Source of the DNA: Leifsonia virtsii
Lineage (GTDB): Bacteria; Actinomycetota; Actinomycetes; Actinomycetales; Microbacteriaceae
Length of the DNA: 49,675 nt
Assembly (NCBI RefSeq): GCF_030433675.1
Contig: NZ_JAROCB010000008.1
Location: forward strand, 1 to 49,675
Direction: 5' to 3'
Both the position numbers and the translations under genes were made by a program. The number at the start of each line of letters is the position of its first letter. Position 1 is the first letter of the stretch. The notes under the pieces were generated by a model. The model saw only the letters and a list, made by a program, of their open reading frames with translations. It was not told the origin of the DNA and did no database searches. Shown one piece after another: positions 226-49,519 of the stretch.

Positions 226-249
226 ACTGTACGGCCTTCGGCCCCTGTC

Positions 250-443
250 TTTTGCCGGGAAGCCTGCGGCATTCTACGGTCGGCGGCCTCCGCGCAAGCT
301 CCCTGCGGGAGCCAGCTCCGCCGAGATTTTCCGCACGCGGTCGCAAGCTCCCTTATTTCGCGCGGAAATTCTCTCCCCCGCCGCCCTGCGGGTTGCACTC
401 CAACCGCTCTCCCTGAACGGCACTACGTGCCTTCCCGGCAAAA
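250..443 (-). other. Structured element R1 (covaries with R2 at 47733-47932)
   Basis: A 13-bp perfect outer stem pairs 250-262 with 431-443. Inside are hairpin 298-303/307-312, stem 323-334/362-373 with one T-T internal mismatch, hairpin 384-386/390-392 and hairpin 419-423/427-431. Two blocks are identical in R2: CCTGCGGCATTCTACGG (263-279) and CCGCCCTGCGGGTTGCACT (381-399). Stems between the blocks differ from R2 but still pair. Read on the minus strand, the triloops are C(GCA)G and C(GTA)G, the GNA class known to be very stable in single-stranded DNA. The element ends 32 bases before the start of the next gene. Its role is inferred, not shown. Confidence 0.75.
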
Positions 444-475
444 CAACATGAGGGAGAGGGAGAGGGAGAGAAGCG

Positions 476-757
476 ATGAGCACACTCATTACCAACACCA
501 GCGACGTCACTCGATTCGCGGCGGTGTTCTCCGCCGGAGACATGGCAGGCGACCTGGGGCCGACCCTGAGCTGCGGCGAGGTCGAGGCCCTGGCGGGGAT
601 GCTTCGAGCGATCGGGGAGCCAGCCAGCGCGGACATGTGGATCGAGGCGCACGCCGCGGGCGACGACGAAGGCGATGCCCACTACCGCTCCCCTGCGGCC
701 GAGTACGTGGTGCCCATCGACCCGATGGAAGCCCTGCAATGTGACAGCTGCCAGTGA
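476..757 (+). CDS. Unknown 93-aa protein ending in CDSCQ
   Basis: The ATG follows a long purine run of GGGAGA repeats that serves as a ribosome site. The protein is acidic and ends with YVVPIDPMEALQCDSCQ. That tail is nearly repeated in the 30-aa peptide encoded at 27099-27191 (YAVPVDPMDEMGCDSCQ), so Y-x-VP-x-DPM...CDSCQ is a shared module. The terminal C-x2-C could bind metal or be modified. There is no signal peptide or membrane segment. The gene lies directly downstream of structured element R1, and the peptide gene lies downstream of the related element at 27298. The family is not recognised. Confidence 0.75.
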   Translation: MSTLITNTSDVTRFAAVFSAGDMAGDLGPTLSCGEVEALAGMLRAIGEPASADMWIEAHAAGDDEGDAHYRSPAAEYVVPIDPMEALQCDSCQ

Positions 758-1214: not shown

Positions 1215-1601
1215 ATGAGCTACATCACTCGCACTGGAAACCTGGCCGAGACGCCCACGCTCCGGGAGGGGGAGCACGGCCCGTACACCTACGCCCGCGT
1301 CATCGTCAGCGACCGCATCCGTCAGTCGGATGGCTCCTACAGCGACGGTCCGGCCACGGCCTACGACGTCGCCGTGAGCGGCAACCAGGCGCAGAACCTC
1401 GTGGACGCGGCCGAGGCAGGCGGAAACATCCGCGTTACCTTCTCCGGCGGCTACCGCATCACCGAGTACAAGGGCGAGCAGGGAACCCGGCTTCAGCACG
1501 AGGTCCGCGCCGACGAAATCGGTGTGAGCCTGCGCGGACAGAGCGTCACCGTCCAGCGCGCGACGGCCGCCGCCGACACCAACGACGACACCCCGTTCTG
1601 A
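1215..1601 (+). CDS. ssb: Single-stranded DNA-binding protein
   Basis: This 128-aa protein has an OB-fold SSB domain over about residues 1-110 and a short linker ending in DTNDDTPF, the acidic tip that recruits partner proteins in bacterial SSBs. An earlier in-frame start exists, but ATG at 1215 follows GGGAGGA at good spacing and gives the expected N-terminus MSYITRTGNL. It is shorter than chromosomal SSBs because the linker is short. Plasmid SSBs coat incoming single strands and are typical of the leading region of conjugative plasmids. It has its own palindrome copy upstream and a strong terminator downstream. Confidence 0.92.
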   Translation: MSYITRTGNLAETPTLREGEHGPYTYARVIVSDRIRQSDGSYSDGPATAYDVAVSGNQAQNLVDAAEAGGNIRVTFSGGYRITEYKGEQGTRLQHEVRADEIGVSLRGQSVTVQRATAAADTNDDTPF

Positions 1602-1645: not shown

Positions 1646-1685
1646 TCACGCCACGCGCACACAACGCAGCAGCATGACGTGACGG

Positions 1686-1699
1686 TAACAGTACTATTA
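1686..1699 (+). promoter_or_regulatory. Palindrome copy 4, upstream of parA
   Basis: TAACAGTACTATTA is the same sequence as copy 2. It lies 21 bases before the GTG start of parA. Since it sits within the longest possible reading frame of parA, it also argues for the downstream start. Confidence 0.6.
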
Positions 1700-1720
1700 G
1701 ACCCATTGGAGGTAACCAAC

Positions 1721-2518
1721 GTGACCGCTCGAATCTTCGCCCTCTGCAACCAGAAGGGCGGCGTCGGCAAGTCCACGACCACGTTTCACCTGGCGCGCGC
1801 CGCGGTGCGTGCAGGCCGGCGCGTGCTCGCCGTCGACAACGACCCACAAGGCAACCTGACGACGATCGCCGCGGCCGAGGATGTAGGGGAGGACCAGGCC
1901 GGCCTTGCCGACGCGCTCAGCTCGCGCGCACCTGAGACCATCCGCGACGTCATCGTTCCCGGCGTCTGGCCCGGCCTCGACGTCGTGCCCACCAGTGGCG
2001 TCACGCTCGGCTACGTGCGCGACGAACTCGTGATCGCCGGAGCCGGCCGAGAAGGCCGCCTGCGCGAGGCCCTGGCCAGCGTCGTCGACGACTACGACCT
2101 GATCCTGATCGACTGCGCACCCAGCCTCGACCAGCTCACCATCAACGGCCTGACGGCCGCCGATGCCGTTGTGGTTGTCACCGAATCCAAGCTGTTCAGC
2201 GCCAACGGGCTCGGCCAGCTCCTCGACACGATCGAGAACGTCAGGGCCTACTACAACCCCGGACTGAGCGTCGCGGGCGTCATCGTCAACAAGCACGAGG
2301 AAAAGACCGTCAGCGGCCGCACATGGCTGGACGAGCTGGGACAAGCCATCACGGCCCGAGGGCTGCGGATGCTCTCACCCGTCGTCCCCAAGCGCGTCGT
2401 CATCTCCGACGCGGCCGAGGCCGCACGCGGCCTCGACGAGTGGGGCGGCTCCGAAGCGACAGAACTCGGAGCCATCTACGCCGACCACCTGACTGCGATC
2501 GAAGGAGCCGCATCATGA
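1721..2518 (+). CDS. parA: ParA-type partition ATPase
   Basis: This 265-aa protein carries the deviant Walker A KGGVGKST (about residues 12-19), the Walker A' region VDNDPQGNLTT, and Walker B LILIDCAPS. It drives segregation of plasmid copies together with the downstream centromere-binding protein. The GTG at 1721 is chosen because TTGGAGG precedes it and the longer frame would run through the palindrome. The stop overlaps the ATG of parB by four bases, so the two are translated together. A palindrome copy upstream suggests autoregulation, but the regulator is not identified. Confidence 0.92.
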   Translation: MTARIFALCNQKGGVGKSTTTFHLARAAVRAGRRVLAVDNDPQGNLTTIAAAEDVGEDQAGLADALSSRAPETIRDVIVPGVWPGLDVVPTSGVTLGYVRDELVIAGAGREGRLREALASVVDDYDLILIDCAPSLDQLTINGLTAADAVVVVTESKLFSANGLGQLLDTIENVRAYYNPGLSVAGVIVNKHEEKTVSGRTWLDELGQAITARGLRMLSPVVPKRVVISDAAEAARGLDEWGGSEATELGAIYADHLTAIEGAAS

Positions 2519-24916: not shown

Positions 24917-25111
24917 ATGGCCCGCAGCACCGCGACGATTCAACCGACTGTCGACGTTGATGGCGAGCTGTCGATGATTGAGAAGGCTCAGCAGCTTGCC
25001 GGTCACTTCCCGGATCACGAAGCGCTTGATCGCGCTCGTCGCATCCTCGACGGTCGTGTGACCGCTGCTGAGGCGTACGTCGAGCTGGACGCGAAGTACG
25101 CCCAAGGGTGA
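24917..25111 (+). CDS. VbhA-like antitoxin
   Basis: This 64-aa protein starts after GAGAGGAG. It matches the VbhA layout: a first helix (MIEKAQQLAGHFPD) and a C-terminal part ALDRARRILDGRVTAAEAYVELDAKY. In known Fic antitoxins the helix carries S/T-x3-E-G, whose Glu blocks ATP binding. Here the aligned stretch reads AQQLAG, with Ala where the Glu is expected. Either the alignment shifts or the antitoxin works differently. The stop overlaps the GTG of fic. Confidence 0.72.
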   Translation: MARSTATIQPTVDVDGELSMIEKAQQLAGHFPDHEALDRARRILDGRVTAAEAYVELDAKYAQG

Positions 25112-25887
25112 GTGAGGACGACAAGTACACCTACCCCGACAGCGGGGGAGTGCTCGTCAACTCGAAGGGGATACGCAACGCCGCCCGGCTCGATGCCGCG
25201 ATGAACGACTATGCCTCTGTCGCAATGGCGGAGCTGCGCACCGAGCCGACGCCGGATCGGTTGGACTACGACTACCTGCGCCGCATCCATACGCGGCTGT
25301 TCGAGCGCATCGTGCCTGGCATCGCCGGTAAGCTCCGCGACGTCGACGTGCAAGCGACCGGGGTCGGGATCGCGTACTGCCGTCCCGAGTACATCGAGCC
25401 CAACCTCACTCGCCTGTTCGACCAGCTCGACCGCGAGGACTACCTGACGGGGCTGGACGCCGACACGTTCGCTGCGCGGCTCGCAGACCGTTGGGGGGAC
25501 CTTTCGGCCATCCATCCCTACCGTGACGGGAACACGCGCAGCCAAAGCCTCTACGTCACCGTGCTCGCTGAGCGAGCCGGGCACCCGATCGACTGGCGGC
25601 GCGTCAACGTGGACGAGCTGCGCACCGCTCGGCTGCGCGCCGTCGTCGGCAACACCAAGCCGCTGGCCGATTATCTCGGTGCCAGGCTCATGAGCTCCGA
25701 AGCTCCACGGCAGAGCCCGTCCCTGTCGAGCACGGCGGGCGTCAGCTCGGCGCTACACGCGAGTTTTCCGCAACCCGCTACTGAAGCCACGCGGAGAACG
25801 CCGCCGGCAGGCGGCATCCAGGAGCGCGGGAGTGCCCCCCACACGTCCGGAGCTCGGTATGGCATGGATCGAGGGATGGGGCGATGA
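25108..25887 (+). CDS. fic: Fic-domain protein (toxin-like adenylyltransferase)
   Basis: The GTG at 25108 overlaps the antitoxin stop (GTGA). The 259-aa protein carries the Fic motif HPYRDGNTR (residues 136-144) with the catalytic His, the acidic residue for magnesium and the second Arg. The N-terminus (YTYPDSGGVLVNSKGIRNAARLD) is typical of VbhT/Fic-1 proteins, which AMPylate DNA gyrase and topoisomerase IV. The last 60 residues are disordered and Pro/Ser-rich, with no BID secretion domain. It overlaps the next resolvase gene by four bases, an unusual link. Confidence 0.87.
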   Translation: MSEDDKYTYPDSGGVLVNSKGIRNAARLDAAMNDYASVAMAELRTEPTPDRLDYDYLRRIHTRLFERIVPGIAGKLRDVDVQATGVGIAYCRPEYIEPNLTRLFDQLDREDYLTGLDADTFAARLADRWGDLSAIHPYRDGNTRSQSLYVTVLAERAGHPIDWRRVNVDELRTARLRAVVGNTKPLADYLGARLMSSEAPRQSPSLSSTAGVSSALHASFPQPATEATRRTPPAGGIQERGSAPHTSGARYGMDRGMGR

Positions 25888-27933: not shown

Positions 27934-28049
27934 GTCCCGGACGGAGGGACGGAGCAAGCTATACGATCCGGTAACCGGATCGGGCTTGATCCTCGACACA
28001 AGGTCGAGGATGCGGCACACTGGACGTGTGGTCCCCGCGTTAGGCGGGG
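27934..28049. other. Candidate oriT with five inverted repeats
   Basis: Between the coiled-coil gene and mobC lie GTCCC-N7-GGGAC (27934-27950), a 9-bp arm palindrome with one central base (27964-27982), ATCCTCGAC-N5-GTCGAGGAT (27989-28011), CACAC-N5-GTGTG (28016-28030) and CCCCGC-N5-GCGGGG (28033-28049). Origins of transfer typically lie just upstream of mobC and relaxase genes and carry such repeats next to the nick site. I cannot name the nick site from sequence alone. Confidence 0.6.
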
Positions 28050-28080
28050 TCGCTGCGCTGGGCCGAGAAGAGGTGACGGC

Positions 28081-28500
28081 ATGGCCGTTTCTGACACCGC
28101 GGGGGAGCAGGAGCCGCGCCGCCAGGCACGCCGCCGTCGCGTCGAGGGCGGTCGCCGGCACCGTCATGTCGTCCGCGTCACTCCGGAGGAAGAGGGGCAG
28201 CTCCTCGCGCTCGCCTTGCAGTACAAGGTGAGCGTGCCCAAGCTGCTTGTGGATTCCGCTCTCGCTGGAGGAGCTGCGGCCGCCGCGTCGAATGCGTCGG
28301 TGCGGCATGAGGTCATTGCGCAAATGTTCTCCACGCACCGGCTGCTGGCCACGATTGCGAATAACGTGAACCAGATGGCGAAGGCGACGAACGCGACTGG
28401 CGACGTGCAGGCTGAGATGGTGGCGACGCTGCGGAAGGTCCGCGAGGTGGCCGATCGGATCGACGCATTCGTCGACGAGCTGAGCGGTGCAGCGTCGTGA
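28081..28500 (+). CDS. mobC: MobC-like relaxosome accessory protein
   Basis: The ATG at 28081 follows AGAGGTG and gives 139 aa. After an Arg-rich start (RRQARRRRVEGGRRHRHVVRVTPEEEGQLLALA, a ribbon-helix-helix-like strand and helix), the second half has the MobC pattern IANNVNQMAKATNATGDVQAEMVATLRKVREVADRIDAF. MobC proteins help melt oriT and position the relaxase. The stop overlaps the relaxase start. Confidence 0.85.
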   Translation: MAVSDTAGEQEPRRQARRRRVEGGRRHRHVVRVTPEEEGQLLALALQYKVSVPKLLVDSALAGGAAAAASNASVRHEVIAQMFSTHRLLATIANNVNQMAKATNATGDVQAEMVATLRKVREVADRIDAFVDELSGAAS

Positions 28501-30263
28501 TGCCGAACGTCGTCCGCGGCGATCGCATGTCGGGACTGATGACGTACCTCACCGGCCCGGGCCGGTCGAACGAGCACACCGAACCGCACCTGGTCGCGGG
28601 CGATCCGGCGCTGATGGCGTGGCACGACGACGCGGAGCTCGGACGCGACGCGGCGCTGTCGATCGCGCGTCACTTGGACAAGCCGCGGGCTGTGTTCGGT
28701 GTCGAGGTTCCGGGCGGTCACGTGTGGCACTGCTCGCTGTCGCTGCGCGCCGACGAAGGGCAGCTCGCGGACGAGCAGTGGGGCGCGATCGCCAACGACT
28801 TCATCACGGCGATGGAGTTCGACGACAACGAGGGGACGAAGGCGCCGTGCCGGTGGGTTGCCGTCCGTCACGGTGTGTCCTCGAACGGCAACGACCACAT
28901 CCACATCGCTGTGAACCTGGTTCGCGAGGACGGCACCAAGGCATCGATCCACAACGACTTCCACCGCGCCCAGGTCGCGGCCCGAGCGCTTGAAGTGAAG
29001 TACGGATTGGAGCAGCTGGAATCGGTGCGCGCAGAGCGCTCCACACGCGGGTACGACCCGGCCGAGCGGGAGGCTCAGGCACGGTCGCGAGCACGCGCGA
29101 AGTACGAACGCACCCGCCCGCAGTTGGGCGATGACGCCCTACGCTGGGAACATCTGACCGGCCCCGATCGGCAGGCTCGGATCAGCGCCGAGCTGCGCAC
29201 CGATCAGCCCCGCTACCTGCTGGCGTTGAAGGTCCGAGGGTGTGCTGGCGCTAGTCGGAGTGAAGCCGAGTTCGTGCGCCGGATGCGGCGTGAAGGGTTG
29301 CTCGTACGCCCTCGCTACGCTGACGGGCGTACTGACGTCGTGACCGGCTACTCGGTGGCCGAACGACCCACGGCCGGGGAACGTCCGATCTGGTACGGCG
29401 GCGGCCACCTTGGCCGCGACCTCACGCTGCCGCGGCTGCGCGACGGGTGGGAGGACACCCCGCAAGGCGCTACCGCGGCGGTGGCCGAATGGAACGCGGC
29501 CAAGCGTGGCCGGCGAGTTGTGGCACCTGGTCGCGAACGGCTGGAGCCGACGAACGATCAAGCACTGCGACACAGCGAGCGACTGGCGCGTACTGTCGAC
29601 GAGCTGGCGCGCGTTCCGCTTGACGATCGCGAGACGTGGGCCACGGTGGCACGGCAGACCGCTGGCGCTCTCGCTGCATGGTCGAACGCCGTGGAGGAGA
29701 CGCCAGGTGATATCGCTGCGGCCGCTGAGGCGTTGTCTCGATCGGCGCAGACGTATCGACGCACCCCGCCTCCGGCGAAGGCGGGAACGATCGCTATTTC
29801 CGGGGCTGCGCTGTTCCTGGCAAGCGCGGTACGCGGAGGGCAAGGCACTGTCGGTGAAGCGGCTCTTGTGCGAGAGATGCTGACACTCACCGTTGCCGTC
29901 ATGAAGGTGGCGGAGGCCGCACGTCAGGACCGCTACGCGCGTACCGCTCTAGCGGATGCGCGCGACCGATTGGAGCGTGTACACGCAGCGTTGCCGACTC
30001 CGCCAGCCCGTAGCGTCGGCCAGGCTGCCGTAGTCGAGGAGCAGGGCAGCGTGGCGACAGAGGCTCCCGCGCTCGACGCTGAGACTCGTGCCATGCTCGA
30101 CCGGCTGAACGCCGGCCGGAGCGGCACGCCAGGCTCGCCGTCCCGCGGGAGCTGCGACCCGATGACTCACCAGCTCGCCGGCCGGCACCACGTCCGGGAC
30201 GGGACGGGACAGAGCGATGAGTGCCACGGTCGTTTCTATCGACATCGAGCCAGGCGGAATTGA
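28500..30263 (+). CDS. Relaxase (MOBP-like mobilization nuclease)
   Basis: This protein of about 587 aa starts at ATG 28500 (TGATG with mobC); GTG at 28497 is also possible. The relaxase domain shows YLTGPGRSNEH (candidate catalytic Tyr16), HVWHCSLSL and the metal triad NDHIHIAVNL (HIH at 133-135, Asn139), as in MobA/VirD2-type enzymes. The remaining 400 residues are Arg- and Ala-rich helices without a helicase domain. It nicks oriT and leads the strand to the recipient. Its last 47 bases overlap the next gene in another frame. Confidence 0.88.
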   Translation: MPNVVRGDRMSGLMTYLTGPGRSNEHTEPHLVAGDPALMAWHDDAELGRDAALSIARHLDKPRAVFGVEVPGGHVWHCSLSLRADEGQLADEQWGAIANDFITAMEFDDNEGTKAPCRWVAVRHGVSSNGNDHIHIAVNLVREDGTKASIHNDFHRAQVAARALEVKYGLEQLESVRAERSTRGYDPAEREAQARSRARAKYERTRPQLGDDALRWEHLTGPDRQARISAELRTDQPRYLLALKVRGCAGASRSEAEFVRRMRREGLLVRPRYADGRTDVVTGYSVAERPTAGERPIWYGGGHLGRDLTLPRLRDGWEDTPQGATAAVAEWNAAKRGRRVVAPGRERLEPTNDQALRHSERLARTVDELARVPLDDRETWATVARQTAGALAAWSNAVEETPGDIAAAAEALSRSAQTYRRTPPPAKAGTIAISGAALFLASAVRGGQGTVGEAALVREMLTLTVAVMKVAEAARQDRYARTALADARDRLERVHAALPTPPARSVGQAAVVEEQGSVATEAPALDAETRAMLDRLNAGRSGTPGSPSRGSCDPMTHQLAGRHHVRDGTGQSDECHGRFYRHRARRN

Positions 30264-45620: not shown

Positions 45621-47621
45621 GTGAAAGACGGTGCCATCATAACCCTCGCGACGGATTATGCATATTCCGGCGCTCCTGGCGCGTCGTGGATACTCACCGC
45701 GGCCATCAGCCCTCGGCCGAGCGTGCGCGTCGCTGTCGTCGACGCCTACGGCGACGTTCAGAACCGCTACCCCTCGCACCGCCGCGTCGACGGCAAGGAG
45801 CCCACGCGCCCGTGGGCGATGTACCTGGCCGACGCCAGCGGACGCTTCCGCTTCCTTGGCTTCGACCTCGACGCCAAGACGCCCGGTGCCGCGGCCGCGG
45901 CAGCTCGTGACGCTGACGTGATCGCCGGCCTCCTCACGGACGCCGGCATTCAGCACGTAGTCTGCGAGTCCGGCCCCTCACACGGCCGCCACGTCTGGGC
46001 CGCTCTCTCCGAGAGCGTCGACGCAGGCACGATCGCCACCCTCGCGCACTTCCTGCGCAACGTGTGCCCAACACTCGACATCGTTCCCCTGACGAACCCG
46101 CAGACCGGTTGCCTGCGCCCGCCAGGTGCCCCGCACCGCCACGGCGGCCGCTCGACGGTGCTGCGCGGCGACCTCGGGATGCTCACCACCCCCACGACCA
46201 CGGCCGCGCAGGTGCGTGGCCTGGTCGAGGCCCTGGCCAAGCTCAGTAACGGCGCTGAGCCCGCAGGGCGTATCGACCCCAAGCGCCCGATCCCCGTCGA
46301 CGAGCACGGCCGCCTGTACCTCCCCGGCCCGCGCCGCGAGCTCACCGCACGCAGCGCCGCCGCACTGCGCGAGGACGCTGCCTCTGGCGACGCCTCCGCA
46401 GTACTCTGGCGCATCCTCGTCGGCGCCGCGGCCGCCAGATGGCGTCACGCCGACGTCGCTGCGCTCGTCGACGACGCACCGGGCCTAGAGCACGTCCGGT
46501 CCTACCGCGATCGCCTACAGCGCCGCCCTCGCGGCCGCGGCGGAGCCGCACACGTCCTCCGCCGGCAATGGGACAAGGCCGTACGGTTCGTGGCCACCAC
46601 AGACCGGCAGGTCGGAGACGACCCCACCTTCGACGCCCGCGCCGACGCGATCGCCGCCCACGTCCGCCACGTCCAGGCGCGAGCGGACGCATCTGCCGGC
46701 CGCTGGGCCCACCGAGGAGGCCCAGCCGACCGCCGCGTGCTCGACGTCCTGTGCATGCTCGCCCTGAAAGCCCTCAGCGCCTCTCTAGAGGCCGATACCC
46801 GCCGCCTCGCCCTGTTTGCCGGGATCGGCCGGGAGACGGCCAGGACGGCGCTCCTACGGCTCGCCGCGGACGGGTGGGTCGCCCAGACCCGCGCTGCCGA
46901 TGGTCCACATGGTGCGCACTGGACCATCGACCCTCAATCGGTTATCCCCAGCTCTGCATCTACAAGTCGGTCACAAGCGGACCCGCGCCCCGCAGGGGCA
47001 GGGTCCGCAGAACGATCCACCCTCCTGGCTACCCTGACCCAGAGAACCCGGGACGCTGCCCACGACCTCTTCACGCTGGGACCGGGGCTCGGCTTCCACG
47101 CGGGGAACATGTACGCCCGCACCACAACGGATCCTCAACCCGTCGACGCGCTCGCTCGTTCCGCAGGATGCACCGTCAACCAGGTGCGGCCGGCCCTCGA
47201 TCGGCTCACCCGTGCCGGCGTCCTCGTCCTCACCCGCCACGGATGGCGACGGCGATCGGTGGATTACCGTCGAGCCGCCGCCGTGCAGCTCGACGTCGAC
47301 GGCCGACTGCAGGCGCGCGCAGCCCGCTACACGGTCGAGCGCGAGCTGTGGGCGTGGTGGCAGGCCGAGGAGACGTGGATGCGCGCCCCACGCCGCACCC
47401 ACCCGAGCCGCCGACCCGGACCCGGCCAGCTCGCACTCCTCCCCGACTTGGGAACAAACGCCTATGGCGCACACCCGCGGGACGCTAACGGTCGAGCCGA
47501 CTTCCGGATGGCACGTGCACTGCTGAGCGGCGCGGCTACGGCATCGACGGCGAGCAAAGGCCGCCGAGCGATCGCGCCCGATCCTGTCGACACGATGCTG
47601 GGAGACGAGCGGATCGCCTGA
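45621..47621 (+). CDS. Replication protein with primase-like (AEP) N-terminus
   Basis: The 666-aa protein starts at GTG 45621 without a clear ribosome site. The N-terminal part has motifs in the order of archaeo-eukaryotic primases: GFDLDAK (80-86), ESGPSHGRHVWAAL (116-129) and LRPPGAPHRHGG (165-176). Two helix-turn-helix regions follow (ARTALLRLAADGWV near 410 and VNQVRPALDRLTRAGVLVLTRHGW near 530). It probably starts plasmid replication by binding the origin and making primers. No separate helicase is encoded nearby. Confidence 0.75.
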   Translation: MKDGAIITLATDYAYSGAPGASWILTAAISPRPSVRVAVVDAYGDVQNRYPSHRRVDGKEPTRPWAMYLADASGRFRFLGFDLDAKTPGAAAAAARDADVIAGLLTDAGIQHVVCESGPSHGRHVWAALSESVDAGTIATLAHFLRNVCPTLDIVPLTNPQTGCLRPPGAPHRHGGRSTVLRGDLGMLTTPTTTAAQVRGLVEALAKLSNGAEPAGRIDPKRPIPVDEHGRLYLPGPRRELTARSAAALREDAASGDASAVLWRILVGAAAARWRHADVAALVDDAPGLEHVRSYRDRLQRRPRGRGGAAHVLRRQWDKAVRFVATTDRQVGDDPTFDARADAIAAHVRHVQARADASAGRWAHRGGPADRRVLDVLCMLALKALSASLEADTRRLALFAGIGRETARTALLRLAADGWVAQTRAADGPHGAHWTIDPQSVIPSSASTSRSQADPRPAGAGSAERSTLLATLTQRTRDAAHDLFTLGPGLGFHAGNMYARTTTDPQPVDALARSAGCTVNQVRPALDRLTRAGVLVLTRHGWRRRSVDYRRAAAVQLDVDGRLQARAARYTVERELWAWWQAEETWMRAPRRTHPSRRPGPGQLALLPDLGTNAYGAHPRDANGRADFRMARALLSGAATASTASKGRRAIAPDPVDTMLGDERIA

Positions 47622-47731: not shown

Positions 47732-47732
47732 T

Positions 47733-47932
47733 CGTTTTCTCGCCGTGAAGCCTGCGGCATTCTACGGGCCTCGTCGTCCGCGCAAGCGGCTGCGCCGCCG
47801 GCTCCTCCGAGACTTTTCGGCCGCGTCGCTGCGCTCCTCACATCGGCCGAAAACTCTCTCCCCCACCGCCCTGCGGGTTGCACTCCCTCCTCTGCCCTGA
47901 ATGGCACTTCGTGCCTTCACGGCAAGAAAACG
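47733..47932 (-). other. Structured element R2 (covaries with R1 at 250-443)
   Basis: An 18-bp outer stem (47733-47750 with 47915-47932) has one non-Watson-Crick pair that is C-A on + but G-T, a wobble, on minus. Inside are hairpin 47786-47790/47794-47798, stem 47814-47822/47845-47853 extended past one C-C mismatch, hairpin 47874-47882 region and hairpin 47903-47907/47911-47915. Identical blocks shared with R1 lie at 47751-47767 and 47866-47884. Each stem has a different sequence from R1 yet pairs fully. Loops on the minus strand are GNA. ArdC starts 55 bases after it. Confidence 0.75.
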
Positions 47933-47953
47933 TGGAGGGGGTCTGAGTGGCCC

Positions 47954-47987: not shown

Positions 47988-48872
47988 ATGGCCCGCAAGA
48001 TCACCAGCACCAAGAGCGCCGAGGAGCGTCGTGCCGAGGCCGAGGAGCTGCAAGCGACGATCGCGACACAGGTCGAGGCGCTGCGCGAATCCGAGGCATG
48101 GGCGGCCTTCCTGAACTTCGCCCAGTCGTTCCACCGCTACAGCCTGGGAAACCTGCTGCTGATCTTCGCCCAGCGGCCCGAGGCGACCCACGTCGCCGGA
48201 TACAGGACCTGGCAGAAGCTCAACCGCCAAGTGCGCAAGGGCGAGCGCGGTATCCGCATCTTTGGCGGCCGCGAGATTCGCGAGACGGTCGAGAACGAAC
48301 GAACCGGCGAGGAAGAAGAACAGCGCCGCGTGCGGTTCTTCCCCGTCTCCGTGTTCGACATGGGACAGACCGACCTCATCGACGAGGAAGCCGGCGACCC
48401 GGCCGACATCGCGCGACCGCTCACCGGAGACGACGCCCGCGGCATCTTCGAGGCCACCGCCGACTACCTCACCGGCACCGGCTGGACCGTCGAGTGCGAG
48501 CCCATCGCGGGAGCTGCCAACGGCTACACCGACCCCGAGGCCCGACGCATCGTCATCGACGCGAACCTGTTTCCCGCCCAGGCAGCCAAGACGGCCCTGC
48601 ACGAGGCCGCGCACGCGATCCTGCACGCTGAGGAGGATCAGGCCGAGTACATCGAGCACCGCGGCGTGAAGGAAACCGAAGCCGAGAGCGTCGCCTACGT
48701 CGTCGCCGGCATTCTCGGACTGGACACCAGCGCCTACAGCGTCGGCTACGTCGCCGGGTGGAGCAACTGCGACTCCGACACCATCAAGGCCACCGCGGCC
48801 AACGTCCTGCGCGCCGCGCACACCCTCGCGGACGCGCTCACCGAGCCCGCGGCCGAGCTCGCCACCGCCTGA
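47988..48872 (+). CDS. ardC: ArdC-type antirestriction protein with metallopeptidase domain
   Basis: ATG at 47988 after CGGAGG gives 294 aa. The N-terminal ArdC region (SEAWAAFLNFAQSFHRYSLGNLLLIFAQRP, YRTWQKLNRQVRKGERGI) binds single-stranded DNA in known members. The second half is a zincin with LHEAAHAILH (HEAAH at 205-209) and a downstream ETEAESVAYVVA. ArdC proteins protect incoming plasmid DNA from restriction. The gene has R2 and a palindrome copy upstream, consistent with early expression on entry. Confidence 0.9.
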   Translation: MARKITSTKSAEERRAEAEELQATIATQVEALRESEAWAAFLNFAQSFHRYSLGNLLLIFAQRPEATHVAGYRTWQKLNRQVRKGERGIRIFGGREIRETVENERTGEEEEQRRVRFFPVSVFDMGQTDLIDEEAGDPADIARPLTGDDARGIFEATADYLTGTGWTVECEPIAGAANGYTDPEARRIVIDANLFPAQAAKTALHEAAHAILHAEEDQAEYIEHRGVKETEAESVAYVVAGILGLDTSAYSVGYVAGWSNCDSDTIKATAANVLRAAHTLADALTEPAAELATA

Positions 48873-48901: not shown

Positions 48902-49519
48902 ATGACCGGTGAGCCCACCCTGTTCGACCTGGCCGAATTCGAGCGCGAGGCGGTCGCCGCCACCCCCTGGGATGGCGCGCCCCTCAGCTACACGGCGGAC
49001 TACTACGAACCCGCCGCCCTGGTCGCCGCGTTCGAGCGCTATTGCGCCGAGCACGGGCACTTCGGCTGCATCCCCCGCAGCCACATGTGGCACCGCGCCT
49101 ACTACTTGGACGGCCCGACCGTCACCGAGGGTCACGAGCTGCACATGTTCACCGCGGACGCCTGGTGCCGTGAGGTTGACCACGACCACAGCGCCGCCCC
49201 GCTGCCCGGCGGCGGCCGGTATCAGGCCAACTGCCCGCGCTGCGCCTGGCACGTCATCACCGACAACGAGAGCGCCGCCGTCGAGGCGTGGCACGACCAC
49301 GCCCTCCCCGGATGGCGCGAGCTGCCGATCCTCCCCCGCAAGCTCGCCCGGTTCGAGAACAAGCAGCGGATCGCGGCCGTCGCCGCATGGGTCACCGCCA
49401 CCTATCCGGCCGCCTGGCAGCGGCCCGGCGTCCCGATCCTCACCGAGCGCGGCGAGCACGGACGCCGCCACGTCCCCGGCCGCTCTCCGCTCGGCGGCTA
49501 CGACCTCGCCGCCGACTAA
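48902..49519 (+). CDS. 205-aa protein with CPRC zinc motif (possibly DUF6349)
   Basis: ATG at 48902 follows GGAGGT. The protein starts TLFDLAEFEREAVAATPWDG, has aromatic and His-rich middle parts (GHFGCIPRSHMWHRAYY, HELHMFTADAWCREVDHDH) and a zinc ribbon-like YQANCPRCAWHVIT. The end is GRRHVPGRSPLGGYDLAAD. It resembles the DUF6349 family of actinobacterial mobile elements, though I am not sure. It sits between ardC and the join-crossing gene with a palindrome on each side. Confidence 0.68.
   Translation: MTGEPTLFDLAEFEREAVAATPWDGAPLSYTADYYEPAALVAAFERYCAEHGHFGCIPRSHMWHRAYYLDGPTVTEGHELHMFTADAWCREVDHDHSAAPLPGGGRYQANCPRCAWHVITDNESAAVEAWHDHALPGWRELPILPRKLARFENKQRIAAVAAWVTATYPAAWQRPGVPILTERGEHGRRHVPGRSPLGGYDLAAD

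Follow-up and report, generated by a model that had tools for sequence, protein, structure and literature searches.

Paired Folded Elements of a Leifsonia Plasmid as Probable Single-Stranded DNA Promoters of the Leading Region

A Structured Sequence Present Twice on One Plasmid

Why would a plasmid keep two copies of a structured sequence in which the letters of the paired arms differ and the pairing is retained? This question is raised by a contig of Leifsonia virtsii (NZ_JAROCB010000008.1), the whole stretch of which, 49,675 nt, was analyzed here and is referred to as the window. A sequence-only reading had described two such copies, R1 (250-443) and R2 (47733-47932). Both were found at these positions, and the compensated arms quoted for them exist and pair as claimed. 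The complete elements are slightly longer: R1 covers 244..449 (covariance-model match of 196.6 bits) and R2 covers 47732..47933 (178.1 bits), with the minus strand as the acting strand of both. Two identical blocks had also been proposed and do exist; however, they measure 21 nt each (259-279, equal to 47747-47767, and 381-401, equal to 47866-47886) rather than 17 and about 20 nt. Overall, the two copies share 77.7% identity over 224 nt (E 4e-38).

The window represents a single circle of 49,598 bp, with 77 nt repeated at both ends, and plasmid NZ_CP043643.1 of Leifsonia shinshuensis matches it at 100% identity over the first 12 kb. Since the plasmid is circular, only ~2.1 kb separate R2 from R1, measured between their starts, and they have the same orientation across the circle junction. 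Upstream of R2 is a large gene (45723-47618) which, based on its position and weak primase-like Pfam matches, perhaps functions in replication. Directly behind R2 is a plus-strand gene for an ArdC-like anti-restriction protein (47988..48872; Pfam ArdcN, E 1.5e-14), followed in the same unit by a plus-strand DUF6349 gene (48902..49519; Pfam PF19876). The first gene behind R1 (476..757, plus strand) encodes a protein of 93 aa without a Pfam family, and farther along the plus strand are genes for SSB (1215..1601; Pfam SSB, E 5.4e-13) and ParA (1679..2518, with the match from 1721). The ArdC gene behind R2, and the 93-aa gene and later SSB behind R1, give both elements the context of leading-region genes.

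The Fold and Its Conservation

Folded as DNA, the minus strand of both copies (250-443 and 47733-47932) reaches -52.8 kcal/mol, with z-scores of -3.3 for R1 and -4.4 for R2. The plus strand also beats its own shuffles (-45.5 kcal/mol and z -2.7 for R1; -44.0 kcal/mol and z -3.4 for R2), yet it is less stable than the minus strand. It is unlikely that R1 and R2 fold by chance.

To describe the fold across relatives, 24 copies of the same length class as R1 and R2 (class A) were aligned by sequence only, leaving out two divergent copies, L019_7662 and L038_1799. From this alignment (A1), unguided RNAalifold returned the outer stem, a GTGCAA/TTGCGC helix, a CCC-GNA-GGG hairpin and the inner stems P5 and P6. 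On the minus strand of R1, the outer stem P1 is formed by a 5' arm at 432..445 and a 3' arm at 248-261. The junction hairpin Hp1 is found at 418..431 in R1, with a GTA loop, and at 47902-47915 in R2, with a GAA loop. P5, which contains a 1x1 mismatch, spans 323..373 in R1 and 47809-47858 in R2, and the hairpin P6, which has a GCA loop, spans 298..312 and 47786-47798, respectively.

The pairing is kept while the letters change. Double changes were found in 23/56 pairs of the RNAalifold structure of A1. With the junction hairpins included, 93.2% of the alignment cells pair, compared to 87.2% in shuffled alignments and 40-45% when the partners are slid. Moreover, 25 pairs change on both sides versus 10.5 when shuffled, and 0/500 shuffles reach 25.

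Covariation was then assessed against a home-made, R-scape-like null in which substitutions were reshuffled on the branches of a FastTree tree, with ancestral letters given by Fitch states. In A1 four pairs were found at E<0.05, of which three are canonical (Hp1 twice and P6), the strongest being in Hp1. In a larger set of 104 copies, whose alignment was fitted to the model, ten pairs reached E<0.05 and nine of these belong to the structure: two in P1, two in Hp1, one in the spacer helix between the -35 and -10 motifs discussed below, three in P5, and one in P6, which holds the top pair. Two further pairs of the spacer helix stand at E=0.05. Each set also gave one pair outside the structure at E<0.05, namely columns 43/186 in A1, which are never paired, and 153/249 in the 104 copies, which adjoins a structure pair. 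Hp1 pairs in only 68-73% of the larger set because two hairpin lengths are mixed there. The sequence-only reading had argued for selection on the fold and had named an R-scape analysis as the check; the excess of double changes in A1, together with several helices covarying above a tree-aware background, bears this out.

A Family of Elements in the Order of Leifsonia

R1 and R2 are members of a family of folded elements of about 167-227 nt. Among 72,556 plasmid records, blastn at E<=1 detected relatives of R1 in 102 and relatives of R2 in 78, mostly from Microbacteriaceae by genus name, although some of the weak ones will be due to chance. Among the matches listed, 60/60 for R1 and 57/60 for R2 overlap no annotated feature, as judged from an incomplete gene table. 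When bacterial and archaeal genomes were scanned with a sequence pattern, 44 loci were obtained. A search of these with nhmmer, together with ten plasmid loci and the window, identified 68 full-length copies; 44 remain once redundancy is removed. The copies fall into three length classes: A, of ~205 nt; B, of ~226 nt, with an insert in the 3' arm; and C, of ~170 nt, without the inner stem P5.

The covariance model that the sequence-only reading had suggested was built from the 24 class-A copies. It recovered a widespread family on plasmids and in genomes, whose members preserve the fold through compensatory changes. The model matched 63/398 genomes of Microbacteriaceae, including that of L. 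virtsii, in 26/85 genera. In a sample of the order, 22/396 genomes matched; these belong to ten families, the Microbacteriaceae included, with only a partial match in one of them (f20). In a sample of the class, the model matched 6/394 genomes, all within the same order and again including L. virtsii, with the number of sampled genomes from outside the order not stated. Some of the matches lie on contigs of megabase size. From 138 model matches, 104 nonredundant copies were retained after dropping one opposite-strand match at L037 and copies >95% identical, so that L040 stands for R2 in this set. Rfam gave 0 matches at the gathering threshold in the window and 0 at E<=1 at the R1 and R2 loci. 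A scan of viral contigs with the conserved-block pattern gave one match, L058.

Plasmids often carry more than one element, each before a different gene; there are two in the window and three in L007. A variant group was also observed whose outer arms are wholly different (L005:12287-12482, L011:46998-47191, and L007:12830-13046). These arms read GTTCCTG/CAGGAAC in L005 and L011 and CTCCTGG/CCAGGAG in L007, in an unchanged layout with, by eye, a NATNAT-like -10.

The Acting Strand

Two further proposals of the sequence-only reading, that the minus strand is the acting one and that its loops are of the C(GNA)G type, held up across the family. The minus strand is the more stable one as DNA in 104/104 copies, compared to 103/165 random control windows from the same loci. 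Within the structure there are 343 G.T wobbles on the minus strand versus 102 A.C, which would be the plus-strand wobbles. Among 370 C-NNN-G hairpins, the loop is GNA in 262 on the minus strand, in 1 on the plus strand, and in 14 in shuffles, which here, as for the promoter patterns, were built from dinucleotide blocks and are not exactly dinucleotide-preserving. GNA loops have been described as producing exceptionally stable DNA mini-hairpins (PMC4686876), and the conserved loops therefore suit single-stranded DNA.

The same strand would also be favored if the element were transcribed as a whole into a minus-strand small RNA, as minus-strand RNA folds too (z -3.3) and covariation gives the same signal whether the strand acts as DNA or as RNA. 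The GNA triloops favor DNA, however, and a minus-strand promoter pattern was found in 0/104 copies within the 150 nt ahead of the element (shuffles 3.5). Of the structure, a transcript starting from the internal TTGCGC/TAGAAT motifs would include no more than the last hairpin and a single P1 arm. A small RNA is therefore a very improbable explanation.

A Promoter Pattern on One Arm of the Fold

Both R1 and R2 contain TTGCGC-N15-TAGAAT on the 3' arm of the minus strand, within the conserved blocks. In R1 the -35-like TTGCGC is at 292..297 and the -10-like TAGAAT at 271..276, and RNAalifold pairs the former with GTGCAA of the 5' arm, at 393..398. The equivalent motifs of R2 are found at 47780..47785, 47759..47764, and 47878..47883, respectively. 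In such an arrangement the 3' arm would be the non-template side and the 5' arm the template side.

The strict pattern TTGNNN-N15-17-TANNNT (equivalent to TTG-N18-20-TANNNT) was found on the 3' arm of 63/104 copies, compared to 0.3/104 for shuffled 3' arms. On the plus strand, a search covering the 5' arm plus the next 60 nt found it in 0/104. The strongest gene-ward promoter would thus depend on folding of the minus strand. The strict pattern is missing in 41/104 copies, and even TTG-N18-20-NANNNT is missing in 24/104; class B has TACGAG or TACGAC at the -10 position. Column by column, the -35 is conserved as T (101/103), T (97/104), and G (100/103), and the -10 as T (73/101), A (84/101), NNN, and T (86/91). 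Similar elements are described in the literature, namely TANNNT as the -10 of actinobacteria and TTGCGA as the -35 of mycobacteria (PMC12288462, PMC8780764). The -35 hexamer is paired, and where it drifts its partner drifts along (for example in L056_6061 and L032_2621). Although the model structure leaves the last T of the -10 unpaired, this letter is conserved, suggesting that a protein recognizes it.

The position just before genes could also be explained if the element were a structured leader (a riboswitch, attenuator, or protein-binding site) in the plus-strand mRNA of the ArdC and SSB units, transcribed from a duplex promoter at its far end. Plus-strand RNA does fold (z -3.2 for R1), and a plus-strand TTG-N20-TANNNT near the far end is present in R1 (252-280) and 11 other copies, R2 not among them, compared to 3.5 in whole-element shuffles. 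It is possible that R1 has a weak gene-ward duplex promoter there. All 12 matches fall in the stretch from P1 to Hp2 and may be a by-product of its conserved letters, and 92/104 copies lack the pattern. A plus-strand pattern within the 150 nt that precede the element was found in 2/104 copies (shuffles 0.9). Furthermore, the plus strand is the less stable one in every copy, the wobbles favor the minus strand, the genes that follow belong to unrelated families, and Rfam has no match. When an intrinsic terminator was sought, the outer stem was found to end in A runs on either strand, with no T run. Given this evidence, an RNA leader is improbable.

Genes behind the Elements

In the 101/104 copies for which an open reading frame was chosen (the remaining three had none in the flank), the first gene starts at a median of 21 nt beyond the element, a value that leans low because the start codon was chosen by a score favoring closeness within 260 nt as well as a ribosome-binding site. 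Annotated starts agree where present, with distances of 14-25 nt in L006, L008, and L009. Six doubtful reading frames were excluded before the Pfam tally. The 95 first proteins included 20 ArdcN, 16 glutaredoxin, 12 DUF3846, 4 ParB_N, 3 DUF3560, and 1 SSB; ArdC, glutaredoxin, ParB, and SSB account for 41 of them, leaving about 54 to which no role is assigned here. PADLOC recognized one family among the first proteins, with two weak matches. Genes this varied speak against a riboswitch specific to one gene and favor a general promoter for establishment genes. The glutaredoxin genes directly behind an element (16/95, for example L005:12510-12764) are unexpected for an early-expressed gene.

The gaps preceding the leading-region genes also contain a 14-nt palindrome near TAATAGTACTATTA. 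With up to 3 mismatches it occurs at six sites of the window (776, 872, 1172, 1686, 47954, and 48876). Similar palindromes are present in L003, L005, L007, L010, L011, and L012 and absent from L006, L008, L009, and L013. They are possibly operators or start-associated repeats.

Folded single strands and paired copies are also features of recombination and segregation sites, such as attC-like hairpins, resolvase sites, or parS, and the plasmid does carry a resolvase gene. The copies of this family are, however, tied to gene starts, and the conserved TTG-N-TANNNT would be left without explanation. This is the most doubtful of the readings considered.

A Candidate Origin of Transfer and the Probable Transferred Strand

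A gene for the relaxosome protein MobC is located at 28078..28497 on the plus strand (its start inferred from an annotated relative), followed by a MobA/VirD2-type relaxase at 28497..30218 (Pfam Relaxase, E 1.8e-13), which runs on the plus strand as do the genes behind R1 and R2. Upstream of mobC, at 27951..28064, is a block consisting of GGAGCAAGCTATA, inverted repeats, and GGTCGCTGCGCTGGGCC, which is kept in 7/7 aligned plasmids and is likely the oriT. Within it, GGAGCAAGCTA is invariant in 7/7 and lies 3' of an inverted repeat on the minus strand. This placement leans toward a nick on the minus strand, but it is no more than a hint, since GCTTG-like letters also follow the repeat on the plus strand. 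A VbhA-like antitoxin and a Fic gene adjoin the resolvase toward the oriT side (24917-25884), and this pairing recurs in several related plasmids.

In all nine fetched plasmids with an annotated relaxase or MobC, the elements are co-directional with it (9/9); one of these is MOBF, and another, L003, is closely related to the window. The tenth, L008, has neither gene annotated. The relaxase is described as typically entering the recipient last (PMC11541004), so from the shared direction we infer that the minus strand enters first and serves as the template. The oriT candidate is about 27 kb from R1, and the elements would thus not be the first DNA to enter.

A Proposed Mechanism

Building on the computed fold, its conservation, the strand preference, the promoter motif on one arm, and the gene context, we consider R1 and R2 to be single-stranded DNA promoters of the plasmid leading region, similar in kind to Frpo/ssi elements and not homologous to them, with a probability of just under 0.8. 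The minus strand would be the transferred strand, the polymerase would use the fold, and the genes would otherwise be weakly expressed. On conjugative transfer, the minus strand would arrive in the recipient as single-stranded DNA and fold. The arms would pair, placing the TTGCGC of the -35 in a helix with GTGCAA and offering the TANNNT of the -10 on the 3' arm beside a largely unpaired stretch. With the 3' arm serving as non-template and the 5' arm as template, the host RNA polymerase would leave the fold at the foot of the stem and read on into the plus-strand genes, among them those for ArdC, SSB, and ParA. Synthesis of the second strand would separate the arms and abolish this promoter, so expression would be early and transient.

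The elements may additionally help to prime synthesis of the complementary strand. In the case of Frpo/ssi, both promoter and priming-site functions have been reported (PMC7690428), and the same polymerase-binding fold would serve both. Priming could even be the main function, with the fold acting as a primer site for complementary-strand synthesis (ssi or sso) in transfer or rolling-circle replication and expression being secondary or absent. A pure origin would need neither the short distance to a start codon, nor several copies per plasmid, nor a promoter pattern pointing at a gene, and this alternative is therefore unlikely.

Comparison with Known Systems

The proposed single-stranded promoters have their closest counterparts in enterobacterial plasmids. 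Frpo1 and Frpo2 of the F plasmid are described as 92% identical and ~5 kb apart, as required for early expression of downstream genes, and as switched off once the second strand is made (PMC9849209). Like these, and like the ssi promoters of ColIb-P9, R1 and R2 are noncoding and occur as two copies a few kb apart before leading genes such as SSB. In Frpo/ssi, the -35 and -10 are reported to lie in a stem-loop of the transferred strand, the genes run toward oriT, and the transferred strand is the template (PMC9849209, PMC11541004). In the Leifsonia plasmid, the position of the promoter within the stem comes from prediction, and the transferred strand, the gene direction relative to oriT, and the template role are presumed. 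Unlike Frpo/ssi, the present elements occur in Actinomycetota, which are G+C-rich hosts. They also differ in their branched fold, which includes GNA loops as well as inner domains, and in their TTGCGC/TANNNT motifs at a spacing of 15-17.

The covariance model of the family gave no match in the leading region of F (best E 0.4); the family would therefore work like Frpo without being filed as a member of it. In that region a pair of sequences 89% identical over 559 nt, one copy of which lies upstream of ssb, is presumed to be Frpo1 and Frpo2. The strict promoter pattern was found in neither of these presumed copies. By eye, TTGGGN occurs 18 nt before TGCATT or TTCATT on the 3' arm of both, which is only suggestive. 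The transferred strand is the more stable one in both copies (-144.0 versus -136.7 and -152.5 versus -139.2); this says little and cannot act as a control, since the same is true for 7/8 unrelated repeats of F. Besides the presumed Frpo copies, F has a hairpin of the transferred strand upstream of an antirestriction gene (L142:6343-6755) with TTGCAT-N15-TAAGAT on its 3' arm, one of several relaxed matches in F.

The promoters of the phage N4 virion RNA polymerase are hairpins with small loops on single-stranded template DNA, used by a dedicated phage polymerase. Similarly, the elements described here would be hairpins read by a polymerase on a single-stranded template; unlike the tiny hairpins of N4, they consist of a 200-nt fold with elements of the sigma-A type.

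The elements also resemble the EGeRS of the Bacillus pLS20 family, sequences that regulate establishment genes on conjugative plasmids of Gram-positive bacteria. For these, a predicted fold without a promoter has been described, with the transferred strand as the non-template, and the authors judged a single-stranded DNA promoter to be highly unlikely (PMC8708921).

Implications for Plasmid Establishment in Actinomycetota

The single-stranded promoters that we found described belong to enterobacterial plasmids (PMC11541004, PMC7690428, PMC9849209). Among the titles and first abstract lines of open-licence papers, no earlier report of such promoters in Actinobacteria was found, and the available text of PMC11541004 contains no word beginning with "Actino". 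For the family as a whole, we think it likely that these elements constitute a large group of self-switching single-stranded DNA promoters, unrelated to Frpo, across the order of Leifsonia. They would be turned on by the entry of single-stranded DNA and off by synthesis of the second strand, on conjugative plasmids and possibly integrative elements. The genes that they would drive include those for anti-restriction proteins, SSB, ParB and, as a new addition, glutaredoxin.

If this is true, expression from the incoming strand exists in Actinomycetota too, apparently with a separate origin, and the system there uses the promoter elements of the phylum itself and a fold suited to DNA. The covariance model would help to locate leading regions, and unknown establishment genes within them, on plasmids for which the transferred strand is unknown.
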